In this document: positions 2,539-54,863 of the stretch, piece by piece
Layout of the letters: every line of letters begins with the position of its first letter
How positions within the stretch are numbered: the stretch's first letter is position 1
Source: Phytoseiulus persimilis
Taxonomy: Eukaryota; Arthropoda; Arachnida; Mesostigmata; Phytoseiidae
Reading direction: 5' to 3'
NCBI GenBank assembly: GCA_037576195.1
Contig: CM075103.1
Coordinates: forward strand, 18,166,001 to 18,230,000
Length of the DNA stretch: 64,000 nt
Made by a program: the position numbers and the translations under genes
The notes under the pieces: model-generated
Seen by the model: only the letters and a program-made list of their open reading frames with translations
Databases searched by the model: none
Told to the model about the DNA's origin: nothing

Positions 2539-3407
2539 ATGATGGAGCCACCCGCACGTAGTCCAAGTCGTCTTCTGTCGACTGTCCCCGGCATGGTCGT
2601 ACCCTCGCAGTTGAATTTGGCAAACGTGAATGCCATGATGTGCGCGGCCCTTCAGGGGTCCGCCACGCAGCTGGCCTTTGCGGCCCTGACGAACGCAAAC
2701 GCCGTCAGCAACAGTTCGAACAACAACAACAACACTCACAACAACAACAATCATAGCGCGTCGAGTCCTCCGTCGACACCTCCGAACGCGCCCGCTTCCC
2801 CAGCCTCTAGGGCTTCCCCTTCGTCAACGACGAGCGCTGCGGCACTGCCCACGTTGAACTTCTCCGTTCAGCAGGTGGCCGCGGTTTGCGAGACGCTCGA
2901 GGAAAGTGGAGATATCGAGAGACTCGGACGCTTCCTTTGGTCGCTCCCCGTGGCTCATCCGAACTGCGCGGAGCTGAATCGCGACGAGAGTGTGCTGAGG
3001 GCCCGGGCCCTCGTGGCGTTTCACAGCGGCAATTTCCGCGAACTGTACGCGATCCTCGAAAGCCACCGCTTCACGAAGTCGTCGCACGCGAAACTGCAGG
3101 CAATGTGGCTAGAGGCACATTACCAAGAAGCCGAAAAGCTGCGTGGCAGACCTCTGGGGCCTGTGGACAAGTACCGGGTGCGCAAGAAGTTCCCACTACC
3201 CAGAACGATCTGGGACGGCGAGCAAAAAACGCACTGCTTCAAGGAGCGCACCCGGAGCCTCTTGAGGGAGTGGTATCTGCAAGATCCATATCCTAACCCA
3301 ACGAAGAAACGAGAACTCGCCCAGGCTACCGGGCTCACTCCCACCCAGGTTGGCAACTGGTTCAAAAACCGTCGCCAGAGAGATCGAGCGGCCGCCGCCA
3401 AAAACCG
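2539..3407 (+). CDS. optix: Six3/6-class homeobox transcription factor (optix), coding exon 1
   Basis: Encodes residues 1-289 plus two bases of codon 290. The N-terminus (1-100) is low-complexity, with an Asn/His run at 60-71 and Ser/Pro/Thr-rich sequence. The SIX domain (about 103-217) begins with an [16 protein letters not shown] block, the region that recruits Groucho in Six3 proteins. The homeodomain (about 222-281) contains [27 protein letters not shown] and [14 protein letters not shown] are diagnostic of the Six3/6 subclass rather than Six1/2 or Six4/5. The family binds DNA in the nucleus and patterns anterior head, brain and eyes. The start is fixed by an in-frame TAG directly before the ATG. 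The exon ends at a consensus GTGAGT donor (3408), just after the homeodomain, as in vertebrate SIX3. Without splicing, an in-frame TGA (3409-3411) follows immediately. Joined to exon 2 the protein is 382 residues to the first stop. Confidence 0.97.
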
Positions 3408-31699: not shown

Positions 31700-34600
31700 A
31701 AAGACTCGGACGAGAATCCCGGATTTGGCTCTCCCTGAGCCGAGAAGAAACCGATGCCGCTGACGTCATTTCGAGTCGCTCGGGGCTTTGTCGAAGGATG
31801 ATCCGATCCTTCTGTGGATTCGTTGCTTCGATCGTTCGCTCGTTCGTTGTCGTCGGGAGCTCATATTGGACGACGAGGCATATGACTGCCGGCAATGCAC
31901 AATGACACCCGCGTGTCGGGCCCACTATCTGTTCCTCTGTCTGATCTGCAAGCTCGGTCTCTGCTGGTCGGAACTCCTTCCCAAAGGCATTCCCAAGAGC
32001 CAGGTCCGTAATATATATCCATGTCCAGGCAGGCAGAGGACAACGACTGGGCGTGAGGGCGAGAAACGGAGCGAGCAGGGTGGTTTATAATAGAGCCATT
32101 CGCAGCGGCACGCGGATCAATAGGAATCGAAGCACTCCGTTGGGTAGCGAGCAATTGAGCATGTTGCTACTCAACTCGCTCGCTCGGTTTGTAAATTCAC
32201 TCGTCTCACTGAGGCCAATGCTAATATACTCATTGACCGATGTGGAAGTCGATGACGACTCCGCAGCCTTCGAGCACGACAGAGTGCGCTAGAAGCCGGC
32301 GACCTGGCTATTGATCTCTCTGCCGTCCATATCCATCGTCGGTGCGCGTGTCCTGTGACTCGCCAGCGCAGGCCTAAATTGCTACTCCAACGATGAAGGC
32401 TTTATAATTGAGACTTGTTGTATCGAACACGGTCGACCTCTGCTGCGCAGTGACATAAAAGACCCGCTTCGAAACAGAGAGACTCGATGCTCCCACTTCA
32501 AGATGGCTGACCTATAGCCTCCGGGGCCTCTCTCGTCCTGCTACTGGGAGAGTACTCCCGCCTGGTCGTGCCCGCTGACTCGTCGGGATTTCGATTTGGA
32601 TCGGACGCCTTCCAGGCTCTGGAATCCGATGCGAACGAATCGCCAGCTAGGGCAGAGTTGTTTGCAGTCGCTCGCGAGGGCAGCCAGTTCGGGCAGCGCC
32701 GAGGGATGGTGCGGTAGAGGATGGCGTGGCGTGGATATTCCTCCATATGCGTCCGTTCCCATAGTAATGATTTAAACCCATGAGAAGCGGGCGGACGGGC
32801 GTGTGGAATGTGTGAGTGAGGACTGGCTGGCTGGCTATATCTATAAAATTATACATTGCGGCCTCTCTCCTAACGCCCCCTCGGAAGGCGCCTCGCGAGT
32901 TCAGGACTTTAAATCATCCGCCTTGGATTTCGCTGGCGAGGCTTTTAATTCTCCGAGTCGCACCCACTCAGTGAGAACGACCGACCGACCGACCCGAGAC
33001 GCAGACAAAGTGCAAGCGCGAATCAAATCACACGAACTCGCTCAACGAAACGGGAGCTGAGTCGGAATCTCGCGTCGCCGAGAGTTTTCAGGAAACGGAA
33101 ATGACCCCGTCCTGCGACTCAAACGCTTGAGGTTAATCCGGTCGGCGGACAAGCGGGCAATCGAGCGGGTGAACTGCTTTCGACTGAGTGACCCGTTTCG
33201 AGAGCAGACCTCAATTAGAAACAAGAGGATGTCTTGGAACGGATCACGTCGGCTCCCGCCGATCGGGACGAAAGCTGCGGGGTCGAAAACCCGGACGCTC
33301 GGAAACGACACCTTCTTCGATGAACGTCGCCGACAGTTTCCAATCGGATCAAGCTTGGAAATCGAATGAGAATCTTTGTCGAATGACTGCGTCTTCCAGC
33401 CGGATGGCTTCACATGTGTGTCGAGGTTTTGCGGCAAGAGGGACTGTGAAACTAGTAGGTCAGCTCCCCCTTGGATCCTGGAACTCGCGCTCGGAACGAG
33501 ACATTTTTCGAAACATCGGAAGCCGGAACAACGAACGGATGACGAGCGAGCAAATACATAAAGCGAAAAAAGCTGCGAGGGGAACAGTCAGTGTTGAAAC
33601 GGTCGGATTTTTGATCACGACCGTGTGGCGCCGTAATGATGTTGGAAATAGTCGATTACAATCTGTGAAGGCGGTCACTTGTCGGCGGCACTGCGTCCAC
33701 GTTTTCCCCGGCCAGTTGTCCGGTGGAGACCTCTTCTTTATAACTCCTCTCCTCCCGTAATAATCAGATCGGGTGATAGTCTGGCCACGCATAGCGTCTC
33801 GATCTATCTTCGGAACATCTTTTCGCTGTGCAGTCCGTTCTCATTTTGTTTCTTTCTCCGTCCGTTTCTGTGCTCTGATGCTTTCGATACACGAGTTTCC
33901 TCGGGACTTCTTCTCAACTTTTTTCCTCCCCAGCAGTCGGTCGTAATAATGCGCCGCTGTCAAGTGTTCGCAACAGTCATTCTTATTCATCCGTCCGCTC
34001 GCTCGCTCGCTCACCCAGCAGACACAACTGGAGCAGATCAGAGATTCCAAAAGTGCGATAAGTCGAAGCTGCTATTGTCAACGAGTCCTACCTCGAACAG
34101 CTCTAAACCGTTCAGAGACCTGAAGCATTCGAGCTGCCAAGAGTCGAAATCCATCCATTCAACCGAAAAGTCGGCGTGACAACAATTCTTTCCAACTGGA
34201 ATGAGCGCAAATTTTTGCAGCGAGGGAGTTCCTACGGAGGAAAATAGTTCCTCGCACAACGAGCCGTATGATAAGATTCAGAACGATTCCGCTTCCTCTG
34301 ACGCTTTCCCGCTTCGTTCAAGAAGTTTGTCATGCAGAAGCTCACGAAGATTCTACATGAGTTCTGGCGCGTCGCGACAGGCAGATGGGTCGAACTGGCG
34401 GAGCTCGTGGCCCGGCCCTCATTAGCTCCGAGCTGCCATGAGGAGCAAGAAGCTCCTGCGGTCATCCTTGTATATACTGGAATGACTATCGAGCGTCAAA
34501 CGGAATTCTCGCTGGACCGGGTAGGAAAGGAAGTCGTCGCAGTGAACGCGAGCATGCATTGATTGAAATTGAGAAATCATCCCCATCTTGGGGCGGAAGA

Positions 34601-35026
34601 GCTTGGAAATCACTTCGGCAGTCGCATCGATTCTCCAGCGGCGCTGAAGTCCCAAACGAAAACTTGGGACGCAACAGTACTGGAAGCGAGAGGGAACCGC
34701 CGCTTTCTATCAGATTCGAGTTTGCTCAGGCGATCCGCAGTCTAGATGGCGAATCGCCCGGCCGGCTTCACAATCATTGAGTTGTTCTGCGACTCAACTG
34801 CGCAATCCGATCTAGAGGTCTAATTTAGAAGTTTCGAAGGATGCCGTCGTGGCCCGAAGCCGAACGACAACGGAACGCTTCTCGGAATTACGAAGCGAAT
34901 TTCGCGCTTCTAGCCTCAGCGGATGGAAAAGTTCACTGGATCCGAAGTCGTTTCCTCACCTAGAGACTCGGTGGCGAAGTTTTGAGGAAACTTTCCTAAC
35001 CTGATTCCCGATTTTCTCTTTTCCAG

Positions 35027-35306
35027 GCTGCTCCAGCAACAGATCTCTCAACATCAACTCGGCTCGTTGGGTGCCTCGGGAGCTCCGAATGCAAAGTCTC
35101 CGAACGGTGTTCTGAACAAGAGATCTCCCGCGGAATCACTGGGTCTCCCGCCGGGATCGACGTCCCTCGCCGACGACCAGCTGTCCTCGTGCGAAGGCTC
35201 GATGGACGACACTTCTCGGCCAACGTCACCCTGTGAGGGCGCGTTGTCCTCGACCTCGTCCGCGGGATCCCCTCCCCCGTCGCGGAGTCCGAGTCCGGGT
35301 CCCTGA
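35027..35306 (+). CDS. optix: optix coding exon 2, up to the first in-frame stop
   Basis: The acceptor is a pyrimidine-rich tract ending TTCCAG at 35026. Its first G completes Arg290 (CG|G), so the frame after the AAAAKNR homeodomain tail is kept and continues LLQQQISQHQLG. The exon adds about 92 residues rich in Ser, Pro and Gly, with an acidic/Ser patch near SLADDQLSSCEGSMDD, a typical flexible C-terminal tail of Six3 proteins. It ends at TGA 35304-35306, followed by C. The exon is assigned by matching splice sites, matching phase and codon composition. The tail itself is too divergent to recognise by sequence. The same frame continues with coding character beyond the TGA (separate entry), so this stop may be leaky or an assembly error. 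Confidence 0.88.
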
Positions 35307-35765
35307 CGGTCCGGGAGCCCTGCGCCGGCCGCGCAGGGTCTTCCCCGAGTCTCGGCCGCGTCGATGCCCTCGCTGGGCCTGACGTTCGCCGCCCCGACGC
35401 CACGTTTCCCCTCGCTAGCGTCCCCCTTCGCCGGGGTGACGGTCGCCAACGATTCGCCGTCGCTGGTGCCTTCGTTCGAGCAATACCTGCAATATTTATT
35501 CATGTCGCTCCCGCCACCCCCGGGCGTCACGGTTCCGCCCTCGCTGGGCGGCCTCCATCCCCATCACCATCACGCATCGCACTTGAACAGCAACAACAAA
35601 TTTTTGCCGACGTCGCTGTCCATAACGCCCGTAGGAACCCAGTCGGACACGTCCGAGCGGAGTCTGGACTCAAAAAGTCCTCCGGACAGCACGACCGCTC
35701 CGCAGACGATGATTTCGCCGTCTGAGACGACCAAGGTCGAGGACGATAACGACATCGTGCAATAG
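35307..35765 (+). CDS. Candidate readthrough extension of optix (152 codons to TAG)
   Basis: In the same frame as exon 2, the reading frame stays open from just after the TGA to TAG at 35763-35765. The encoded 152 residues resemble a transcription-factor tail: Pro/Ser-rich blocks, an aromatic patch FEQYLQYLFMSLPPPPGV, a His run (HPHHHH), an Asn stretch and an acidic end (KVEDDNDIVQ). A hand count gives about 118 of 152 codons ending in G or C, far above the surrounding intron and UTR. No splice pair would neatly remove the TGA. The stop context is TGA-C, and a GC-rich hairpin begins 6-11 bases downstream. With readthrough the protein would be 535 residues. Alternatives are a C-to-T sequencing or assembly error (CGA to TGA) or a recent truncating allele. 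Coding status is well supported; the mechanism is inference. Confidence 0.7.
   Translation, partial: RSGSPAPAAQGLPRVSAASMPSLGLTFAAPTPRFPSLASPFAGVTVANDSPSLVPSFEQYLQYLFMSLPPPPGVTVPPSLGGLHPHHHHASHLNSNNKFLPTSLSITPVGTQSDTSERSLDSKSPPDSTTAPQTMISPSETTKVEDDNDIVQ
35313..35344 (+). promoter_or_regulatory. RNA hairpin directly downstream of the optix TGA stop
   Basis: CCCTGCGC (35318-35325) and GCGCAGGG (35331-35338) are perfect 8-bp complements around a five-base CGGCC loop. Allowing one bulged T at 35339 and one G-U pair, five more pairs extend the stem to 35313/35344. The structure starts about six bases after the TGA. Stable stem-loops at this distance promote readthrough in several known animal and viral examples. 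No alternative function, such as a terminator, is expected for RNA polymerase II. Confidence 0.6.
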
Positions 35766-36440
35766 GGGAGCTCTGTTGGGAATCCTGAAGACGATGGCGA
35801 CCCTCGGCCGACCCGTTCGTTCCCGGGGTCGGCTCCTCCCGAGGCGACCCACAAGCCCGACCCCGGGGGTCGAACGCGGAACCTGCGACGAGGTCGGACG
35901 ACACCCGTGATGGGAGAGGAGGAACAAGCCAGAGTTGGAGTCTGCGCGGAAGTGGAGAGAACGTGAATTCCTTGGGAGATCTTGACTGAGTTCTCAATCT
36001 GGAAACCATCGGAACTCGTCGGCTTCGCCGCCAGCTTGTAAATATCGTGTAGAATATTTTGGGAAAACGGTCCGCCGTCCCCGGAGAATGTCCCAGGACG
36101 GAATCGGGGAGGGCGATCGGGGATACGAGTCGGAACGATGATATTCGGAGACACGGAGAATCGATCGGGAACGTTCCGAAGTTTAGGAATAATGCTTGAC
36201 AGAACTGAAAACAAAGAACGAGTTCGTGTTTGCCCTCTAGTCGCATCTTCTGAGAAAACAAAGCGCGTTACTCACACACCATGACGTCTTCGCTGTCACG
36301 AAGCGGACACTTTCCGAGAAGCCAATGATGAGTTTCTGAAGCGCATGACACGAGGCGCGCTTTGCGTCGAGGTCGCTGGCTGGCTCCCACCAGCGACCAG
36401 GGTCTGGACCTTCGGTTCGGCCTTCTCTGTGTACATATGC

Positions 36441-36446
36441 AATAAA
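36441..36446 (+). promoter_or_regulatory. Poly(A) signal for optix
   Basis: AATAAA about 680 bases after the TAG at 35763. Further AATAAA copies at 36766 and about 37066 could give longer 3'UTRs. The 3'UTR between 35766 and here has no open plus-strand frame. Confidence 0.5.
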
Positions 36447-38034
36447 ATTGATAACGTAAACAACAACAATATAAGCTTAAAGTAGGGCGGAGGAGAGACT
36501 CGCTGATGGGGTTCACGACGACAACAACCATGACTAGTATCGAGTTGTAGTAGGAAAGCTCCGAAGAATTTTCGACACCGAGTCAGCGAAAGTAACAACG
36601 GAACGAGCGAAGGACCGAAAAGAAGACACCCGATAAGAGAACTCGCTTCTGACCGTCGCCAACACCACCAGCATCACAGACACTTCAATTACCGAAATCG
36701 AGAACGATTTTCACAAACCCTGACAACCCCCACCAACACTTTATCAACAAGGAGAAACGGATTGAAATAAACCATCTCAACGATTTTGAAATGAAGTCCG
36801 AGTGCGTGCCCCGCATGCGGGGAAGCGATCTTCGACTCCATTCTAACTATTAGCAACTGTAGGATACAATATACAATTGTGTACGATTATGAGCTGAATG
36901 ATGGAAATAATGACGACGATGATGATGACATTCGCCCCCTCCCATCACTTGCCCTGCTGTCCCAGTGATGACGTGCGCAACTTCCGACCTTTTTAGCGGA
37001 AAGTAAAGGAGGAATGAAGCGGAAAGGGGAAAGTTGAGGCTTGAAAGGCAGTACGAGTGGAAATCAATAAATAGAAACACTAGAGTTGAACTCACCAAAG
37101 AAAACGTTTCCTTATTCTGACCTGCATCCTCGATCGGGAATGAAAGGTCTGCTAAGCAGGACGCATTGTCCCTTTGAATCGGCAGGTGTCAGCACCCATA
37201 CGTGATATGCGTCAACGGACGGGTGAACTCGCGACTAGATGTCTTTCACGGGTCCTACAGGGTGTTCGGGGAGACATACGTTTGCTCACTTTCAGCTCAC
37301 TGAGTGTGCTCGTGTAGGTTCCGAAGCGATTTATTCTTATCGGTTGCTGTGCACGCTCCGAAGACGCTAGGTCGCCCTTCATATGGTATTTCGAAGCTCT
37401 ATCACCTGGCCACGGGGACAGACTCAGATCCCCGACCCTGATTCTCAACCGGAGGGCGTATAATTCGAAGGCAGCGCGATATTCGTCACCTTGGAACAAT
37501 CGATTCAGAGGCCAACCTCTGTGTTGTGCAACGAATTATCGTTCCGTGACGTTGATCCCGGACTGACTCGCGCAGCATAGGGACGGTGGAAGAACTTCAG
37601 CGGAAATGAACACAGTTCGAATCGACCCGATGGCCGCAGCAAGCTGGGGTGCATTGAGCATTTCGACGCGTGTAGTTTGACACCGAGCCCGACTGGGACT
37701 GCGGAGTCGTTTTCCGACGCTTCCAGAGCGCTTGTGACTCGATCCGGCAAGCTTCCGAAAGAAGCAACTCCTCGCTGCGTCCTCAGCTCCCTTCCGATCT
37801 TCACACATTTCAGTTGAATTTTCCGCACTCAGATGTGAGGATTATCCACCCGTATCGACATTGAACAAGGAAAGCTCCGGTTCAGAGTCGGAAACTCGGA
37901 CCAGGAAGTCGCAGAAAGTAATATCAGGACTGCATGTGATCGAGAGGTGATTGCTCCGGGGCTTGCGATGCGAGAGCCAGAATTCGGAGATACAGCGCTC
38001 ATCCGTTACAGGCATCCAGAGTGAGGAGGGTGAG

Positions 38035-38049
38035 CCCCCCCCCCCCCCC
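38035..38049. repeat. Poly(C) run of 15
   Basis: Fifteen consecutive C bases. Runs like this are prone to length errors in assembly. Confidence 0.95.
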
Positions 38050-38518
38050 ACGCGCCGCTGTTCTCCTTATCTTAACAATGGATTCCTCGAATCAGACATG
38101 AGACTGTCTGCGGGTTCAGAAGAGGCGTTCTACAGGCCCTGCCGACGTTTTGCGAAGTGTCGGCCTGCACCACAGCTCCCGAAGGCTGAATGTATCGCGA
38201 ATTTCTGTGGGAGAATGTTTGCATCAATCTCGAAGGAAATAGTCCGAAGCCGATCCGGGGGATCGATGTGACAGCCGACTCCTGGATAACGAATTCAATC
38301 TTGCGCTCTTCAACCTCTGTTGATCGATACGCGGTGGCATGAGCTGATATTTCAGCCGGATGACCTCAACCCGGTTGGTTCAACTTGGAGATTCATACTT
38401 CGCTCATTCATTTGGCTCGGATGCTGCTCCATGTTGCTGAAATCAGCCTCCGCCACGCTTGACGAGCTCAGGTATTCGAGCTACCTGGATAAATGTCTGA
38501 CGAAATCGACCCCCAGCT

Positions 38519-38558
38519 GGATTCGAACGCCTCGTTACGACGCTCGATCAAACCGCCA
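38519..38558 (-). repeat. Second tRNA-like SINE head
   Basis: The minus strand carries an A-box-like TGGCGGTTTGATCGAGCG (38541-38558) and a B box CGTTCGAATCC (38519-38529). The pattern resembles the copy at 31.6 kb (GATGGCG-x-GGT-x-GAGCG, then GTTCGAATCC). It is degenerate and has no cloverleaf. Confidence 0.32.
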
Positions 38559-39399
38559 TCAGTCACGATCCGTTTAGCTCGATCAGGCTCTTGCTGACAC
38601 TGTTCTACGAAATTTCGTTTTCGCAGCTCAGATGGTCCTACAGTAGAACCTCTATTTGTATCAACCTCCATTATACCAGTTTCCGATTTTCAACCGTCAA
38701 TTAGATCAATTCTGGACTGTATCAACCTCGATCTTCTCAACCTGTAGCTCAACCTCAATCAGATCTAGCCCGCTGGATGCACCACGGATGCACGGAACGA
38801 CATATCTGCAGAATCTTCATTCAGGGAACGCTCAAAGTCGCATAGAACATTAGGGGGATTCCTCGAGATTTTTTTTTCATGCTCATAGAGGAGAGAGAAA
38901 TGCTTGTTGCAAACACCAGGAATCCTTGCCTCGAGATCTCGTCGACTCCATTTCGGCATGCCGTCGCTCTCCTGAAAGTTTCTCGAAGCCACCTGAGAGC
39001 TTTTGCTCGAAGCCTTCGGGGCCGGATTGTGAAAAAGGCAGAATCATCTTCGAATAACCTGAATACCTGCCAGATCTGTTCCTGAGAATATTTTTGGAAC
39101 AATCCGATGGACTCTTGATCCGGAGAACGGCCCCGAAAATTCTATTTTATCTGGGACACGCTGCGTCTCCGAACCTAGGTTTTGTCAGTCTCCAATATAT
39201 CAACGAATTGTGACATCCATTATTGAGACGATCAGGCCTTCACTGCGTTTTATCCAGTAAGTCGATTCCGTCATCCGAAAGTTCTCCGATGTTGTTTGCG
39301 TTAATTTCGGAAGTCAATGACGAATCTGGAGCCGCGATGTTTTCTTCAACTGTTCTCGGTGGTGGCGCCGATATCAACGGGCCCAATGAATCACAGGAT

Positions 39400-54236: not shown

Positions 54237-54863
54237 TCGTCGAGCGCCGCAGGAGATCGCGGTTGCAATGAAGCGCTCTTCCGGATGCTCCGGCACGCGA
54301 TCAACGTGCTCACCGATGGCAAAGAACTCCTCGAAGATATCCTCCGGGACCCCGAGAGTCTGCTCCGGCCAGAAGTCATCGTGAAGCCCTCACAGTGCAA
54401 TGCAGAACGCCGACCGTTCGGCAATCGATACGACGACGACCGTCAAGATGACTGGGACAGAGACTACGGCTCGTCATGGCCGCCCAGGGATATTGGCCCT
54501 CCGCGATCGCCCAGAGACCGAGATTCGCCACGGTTCCCGAGAGAATCCGAGTCGTCGCGGTACCCTCGGGACCGTGAACCGTCGCGGTACCCTCGGGACC
54601 GTGAACCGTCGCGATACCCTCGAGAGAGCGGCCCGTCGCGGCCCACCAGGCAGAGGAGCCCGATGGAAGCTGCAAGGATCAGCCTCCACAGCAACAAGCA
54701 GCAAGACGATATTTTGAAGGATCTCGACGTGCTCCCCAGCATGGACATCCAGGCCAACACGGTTCCTCTGAGAAATCGGGACGCGGGACGGGGATCGTCT
54801 TCAGACGCCTTCCTCAATCGAGTCAGTCCGAGACGACACACATTCTCTCCTCGGAGAATATGA
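54237..54863 (+). CDS. Secreted Arg/Pro/Asp-rich repeat protein, exon 2
   Basis: Completes a 236-residue protein. After the signal peptide a probably helical region (38-75, CNEALFRMLRHAINVLTDGK) is bounded by Cys38 and Cys82. A charged tract follows (YDDDRQDDWDRDYG), then repeats of the type SRYPRDREP (about 111-165) and a C-terminal part rich in Ser and Arg ending SPRRHTFSPRRI. The repeats come from a 27-bp DNA tandem repeat. Paired Cys and the signal peptide point to secretion. RxxR-like sites exist but there are no amidation signals (GKR), so a neuropeptide precursor is not supported. AATAAA at 54984 gives a short 3'UTR. Function unknown; candidates are a salivary, cuticular or reproductive secreted protein (inference). 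Confidence 0.75.
   Translation, partial: SSSAAGDRGCNEALFRMLRHAINVLTDGKELLEDILRDPESLLRPEVIVKPSQCNAERRPFGNRYDDDRQDDWDRDYGSSWPPRDIGPPRSPRDRDSPRFPRESESSRYPRDREPSRYPRDREPSRYPRESGPSRPTRQRSPMEAARISLHSNKQQDDILKDLDVLPSMDIQANTVPLRNRDAGRGSSSDAFLNRVSPRRHTFSPRRI
54554..54634 (+). repeat. 27-bp tandem repeat, three copies, in coding sequence
   Basis: GTCGCGGTACCCTCGGGACC begins at 54554 and 54581; a diverged third copy starts at 54608 (GTCGCGATACC). Each unit keeps the frame and encodes nine residues (SRYPRDREP). Weaker copies occur just upstream. Confidence 0.9.

Follow-up and report, generated by a model that had tools for sequence, protein, structure and literature searches.

A homeobox gene of the mite Phytoseiulus persimilis raises the question of why its reading frame, on reaching a TGA stop, continues in phase as coding-type sequence. 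The gene lies in a window of 64,000 nucleotides, which is the whole stretch of DNA analyzed here. An earlier note on this DNA had proposed stop codon readthrough in a Six3/optix gene. The coding-type sequence past the TGA and the leaky stop context bear out that proposal in part, whereas ribosomal readthrough itself, its frequency and the function of the resulting tail are what we infer.

Gene structure and identity

We identified a Six3/optix-like gene on the + strand with two coding exons, 2539-3407 and from 35027 on. Its features in the window are as follows.

2539-3407, + strand: coding exon 1 with SIX domain and homeodomain (PF16878, PF00046); the exon ends at the donor CCG/GTGAGT, the slash marking the boundary
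3408-35026, + strand: intron of 31.6 kb (donor 10.0 bits, acceptor 9.9 bits), with the frame kept across it
35027-35306, + strand: coding exon 2, defined by the reading frame and including the TGA stop (35304-35306)
35307-35765, + strand: in-phase extension of 152 codons plus TAG, supported by synonymous usage and GC3 excess
36441-36446, + strand: candidate poly(A) signal AATAAA, a pattern match only

Splice sites were scored with generic matrices, and the bit values are approximate. The TGA at 35304 is reached after 382 codons, and both exon 1 and the 382-residue length given for the short isoform in the earlier note were confirmed. In Pfam, the SIX domain of exon 1 scored 162.4 bits (cut-off, 27.4) and the homeodomain that follows it 47 bits (cut-off, 22.9); judged by this domain order, with both matches above cut-off, the predicted protein belongs to the SIX homeobox family. 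We take it to represent the Six3/6 (optix) subclass, as opposed to Six1/2 or Six4/5, an approximate assignment from sequence motifs. Thirty sequences with solved structures matched the SIX and homeodomain part, which was used as the query without the tail. As expected for an animal gene, tblastn returned no relatives for exon 2 among viral contigs or for the SIX domain plus homeodomain among prokaryote genomes.

The genome searched comprised 181 Mb in 127 contigs, with contigs C1 to C4 measuring 54.7, 52.0, 38.9 and 28.1 Mb. Further SIX-domain matches are located on C2 and C1. Homeodomain matches numbered 95; of 20 loci read, 19 were legible, with L080 lacking a readable homeodomain. Two near-identical homeodomains, presumably paired-type, lie ~15 kb apart on opposite strands of C3 (L068 and L069, at 30.75 and 30.77 Mb) and perhaps reflect a local duplication. 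Hox-type homeodomains occur on different chromosomes, one on C2 and two on C1 and C4; we take the C2 locus to be proboscipedia-like and the C1 and C4 loci to be Antp-class, the names being approximate. This spread over chromosomes resembles the scattered Hox set of Metaseiulus occidentalis, as described in the accessible portion of PMC4862073. Two smaller observations concern the window itself. Within what is presumably the 3′ untranslated region, 75 bp (36216-36290) match the minus strand of the small contig C39 (34483-34557) at 84% and possibly represent a dispersed element, and a 27-bp tandem repeat is present at 54553-54622 (2.6 copies, 97%).

Coding signal and stop context

The frame after the TGA runs from 35307 to 35762 and closes with a TAG at 35763-35765, which would give a long form of 535 residues. 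The sequence thus agrees with the earlier reading of a TGA followed by C and 152 open codons, the full context being TGA-CGG. GC by codon position in this frame was 0.59/0.55/0.78, matching the ~78% G/C third positions previously counted by hand, versus 0.60/0.57/0.54 in 35766-36400. The GC3 excess was 0.204, with none of 2000 shuffles as high, and synonymous usage scored 10.9 bits, a value reached in 1 of 2000 dinucleotide shuffles. Scores were -3.5 and -13.6 bits for the two other forward frames past the TGA and, in the frame of the extension, -8.1 bits for the 456 bases past the TAG. The synonymous-usage score is not decisive on its own because two antisense frames of the stretch past the TAG reached 11.3 and 9.6 bits; that stretch has no GC3 periodicity, with GC of 0.57-0.58 at each position. 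All usage scores refer to 21 open reading frames (ORFs; 6429 codons) from the same genome, a small coding reference with little power in very GC-rich sequence.

Past 35421, the synonymous signal was strong (13.5 bits, 0/1000 shuffles), and in 35307-35417 it was absent (-2.2 bits, 339/1000 shuffles), with a GC3 excess of 0.08 (140/1000). The piece just 5′ of the TGA likewise gave no synonymous signal (0.0 bits, 229/1000), and the test therefore appears weak in such GC-rich sequence. Amino acid make-up in frame 0 of 35307-35417 was like that of the rest of the protein (3/2000 shuffles), with one antisense frame of the same piece fitting equally (-6.4 versus -7.0 for frame 0). Within exon 2, CCNTCNCT was always found in phase 0 (4/4), as were all six occurrences of TCGCT (Ser-Leu), two of each motif falling within 35307-35417. 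Together, the phase-0 motifs and the frame-0 make-up suggest that the coding frame runs on directly from the TGA.

Open length was dropped as evidence. Both strands of ~260 kb contained 686 ORFs of 100 or more amino acids that end in a stop, the Six3-like case included; eight of these were followed in phase by an open stretch of no lesser length, and the post-TGA frame was open in 193 of 2000 shuffles. In the other seven of these eight cases, the GC3 excess was only -0.05 to 0.03. That the sequence past the TGA is coding, now or until recently, is well supported by single-genome composition, whose signal is weak within 35307-35417. Long open frames also overlap one another across exon 2, at 35237-35725 (+ strand, 162 amino acids), 35054-35563 (- strand, 169 amino acids) and 34996-35499 (- strand, 167 amino acids), and probably result from the GC-rich codon pattern.

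The sequence around the stop reads CCC-TGA-CGG-TCC and leads into a predicted hairpin with its stem from 35313.

35304-35309, + strand: TGA-CGG, a Type II stop context (from the sequence; motif as defined in the accessible text of PMC11166343)
35313-35345, + strand: predicted stem-loop, 6 nt past the TGA (-25.3 kcal/mol for 35310-35350)

Type II readthrough, in the account available from PMC11166343, involves a UGA generally followed by CGG or CUA and often by a stem-loop ~6-12 nt away. By its sequence, UGA-CGG is a leaky stop context, and with a stem after a 6-nt spacer, predicted without covariation, the site fits the definition of a Type II element, a match that the earlier note overlooked. 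That note had placed a GC-rich hairpin about six bases past the TGA, and folding predicts one there, with arms at 35313-35325 and 35331-35345 that form 13 pairs, including one G-U, with a 2-nt bulge.

The 41-nt piece 35310-35350 folded as well in 4 of 200 shuffles; the 101-nt fold around the stop was unremarkable (29/200 shuffles as stable, z -0.99). When 10,225 TGA sites from both strands of ~260 kb were folded in the same register, this hairpin was the most stable, the next reaching -22.4. When all stop triplets (TGA, TAA and TAG) were taken together, 2 of 17,130 reached -25.29 kcal/mol, the second not being a TGA. TGA-CGG accounted for 131 of the 10,225 TGA sites, and a single one of 181 TGA-CGG or TGA-CTA sites, the Six3-like site, had a predicted hairpin at least as stable as -20 kcal/mol (next, -15.5). 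GC content is 0.50-0.53 in the window and in the sample from its neighborhood, and the hairpin region is the most GC-rich stretch sampled, which weakens the argument from stability because high GC by itself favors stable hairpins.

Explanations for the TGA

As the best single explanation for the combination of a TGA and a coding tail, we give readthrough about an even chance. It is rather unlikely, in our estimate, that the tail was coding until recently and that the TGA arose as a new nonsense mutation, a variant of the sequenced line or an assembly base error, with no readthrough taking place. The Ser/Pro-rich sequence does continue on both sides of the TGA, as though the stop had been placed into a pre-existing frame, and eight codons, including Arg CGA, are a single change away from TGA, for example, through CGA to TGA at a CpG. 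Moreover, 152 unselected codons would stay free of stops with a probability of 0.78 if divergence is 2% and 0.53 if it is 5%, and because neutral frames stay open so long, composition cannot separate a young mutation from readthrough. The assembly holds no allelic or duplicated copy against which the TGA base could be checked. A stop arising at random would, however, seldom land directly 5′ of CGG and at 6 nt from a highly stable stem, given the frequencies above (131/10,225 and 1/181), although the GC-rich setting weakens this argument as well. Far less probable is that the extension is ordinary 3′ untranslated sequence, open by chance. Chance openness of that length is not rare, judging by the shuffle and ORF counts given above, but the GC3 excess (0/2000), synonymous usage (1/2000), phase-0 motifs and frame-0 composition all speak against this reading. 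We attach the lowest probability, a very small one, to the UGA being recoded otherwise, by A-to-I editing to UGG or as selenocysteine. The hairpin adjoins the UGA codon, as noted, but the A of the UGA is unpaired in both folds and preceded by G, and ADAR disfavors an A preceded by G. Rfam, which includes SECIS models, gave no match in 33000-39000 at E values up to 5 and hence no SECIS element indicative of a selenoprotein.

An intron removing the TGA, which the earlier note had named as an outcome that would refute readthrough, can be drawn in frame but is poorly supported.

35233-35418, + strand: candidate in-frame 186-nt intron, not favored (donor 5.5 bits, acceptor 2.5 bits)

If this segment were spliced out in some or all transcripts, the long protein would arise through splicing, a scenario that we regard as improbable. 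The best donor 5′ of the TGA and the best acceptor 3′ of it pair in frame and form a canonical GT-AG pair, the strong synonymous signal starts past the candidate acceptor, and a median intron of 135 bp and high intron gain rates are given for Metaseiulus occidentalis in the available part of PMC7738191. Conversely, the gene's own splice sites score far higher (10.0 and 9.9 bits), and the summed pair score of 8.0 bits is ordinary: 184 of 1000 shuffles reach it, as do 4 of the 18 coding stretches with comparable geometry that were long enough among 20 retrieved. The candidate has a GC content of 0.747, versus 0.61 and 0.60 in its flanks; 13 inferred introns range from 0.42 to 0.54, or up to 0.60 when all 16 resolved ones are included. 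It ends in TAG, whereas 13 of 13 inferred introns end in CAG, in a sample biased toward neighboring kinase matches, which gave only lengths divisible by three, and scored with a matrix that favors CAG. These introns came from 23 kinase-gene exon pairs, 16 of which were resolved and 7 of which yielded none; 3 of the 16, scoring <5, were set aside. Frame-0 composition and phase-0 motifs also continue through the candidate intron.

Related splicing schemes were considered as well. Exitrons are described in the accessible text of PMC4484396 as being without stops and lower in GC than exons; the candidate contains the TGA at 35304 and exceeds its flanking exons in GC. Two further schemes were rejected. 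For splicing of exon 1 straight to an acceptor past the TGA, the two in-phase sites among the 12 best acceptors score only -1.8 and -3.7 bits. For a GC-AG intron, the sequence 5′ of the TGA offers no GC donor with AAG or GAG behind it.

Readthrough in its specific form, with a chelicerate Six3/optix gene using virus-like Type II programmed readthrough to produce two head-patterning factors, one short and one long, is a tentative proposal to which we assign slightly less than an even chance. In such a scheme, the majority of ribosomes would end at the UGA and release the 382-residue factor. While the UGA occupies the A site, ribosomes would be slowed by the stem and release would be weakened by the CGG; a minority would accept a near-cognate tRNA at the UGA. 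These ribosomes would then proceed for 152 codons to the UAG and produce the 535-residue form. Each step is modeled on viral and fly systems.

The tail itself is Pro/Ser-rich and, according to AlphaFold2 run without an alignment, mostly disordered (mean pLDDT 54). Pfam returned nothing above cut-off in it, and one short structured element was predicted.

35475-35507, + strand: short predicted helix FEQYLQYLFMS (AlphaFold2; residues 51-70 average pLDDT 73-77)

This predicted helix could be a partner-binding motif, and the tail would probably alter partner binding or activity.

Relation to known readthrough systems

Many insect regulators are known to undergo programmed readthrough, but in the only arachnid tested it was considered scarce; the main text of PMC5100048 reports abundant readthrough from Pancrustacea only, with considerably fewer cases in that arachnid. 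The Anopheles and Drosophila genes with conserved readthrough that are treated there resemble the mite gene in their UGA stops and favored C at +4, and ~9-10% of them have predicted RNA structures past the stop. They differ in having been found through multi-species alignments within Pancrustacea, whereas the mite case comes from one genome. Optix and Six3 are not named in the main text of that study, its supplementary gene lists aside. In the open-license literature, we found no description of a chelicerate Six3/optix gene with such readthrough. The mechanism is known, and the gene (SIX family) and the lineage (outside Pancrustacea) would be new. If the proposal is true, a leaky context combined with a strong stem would constitute a clear chelicerate case, showing that the mechanism is no specialty of Pancrustacea, and a factor that ranks among the most conserved in head patterning would gain a second isoform.

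Among individual genes, the Drosophila eye factor glass has a predicted UGA-C readthrough isoform (PC), as reported in the available sections of PMC6655844, and is similar to the mite gene as an eye/head transcription factor with a UGA-C stop and an in-frame extension. It is a zinc-finger gene with a 75-residue extension conserved in higher Diptera, and its description there includes no stem-loop. The glass extension was reported to be dispensable for eye development in the laboratory and, therefore, a readthrough tail need not matter. The POU factor gene dfr/vvl of Drosophila, for which the accessible text of PMC13170385 reports that a stem-loop at +9 to +59 promotes readthrough and that its stability and distance matter, shares with the mite gene the status of a developmental transcription factor and a stable stem, located at +10 in the mite gene. 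It differs in its UAG stop, in being intronless and in having a conserved stem tested by reporters and in larvae, while the mite gene carries UGA-CGG. Viral Type II readthrough, as presented in the part of PMC11166343 available to us, is matched by the mite gene in the UGA, the CGG and the stem at 6 nt, with the difference that the mite case is a cellular animal gene known from sequence alone.
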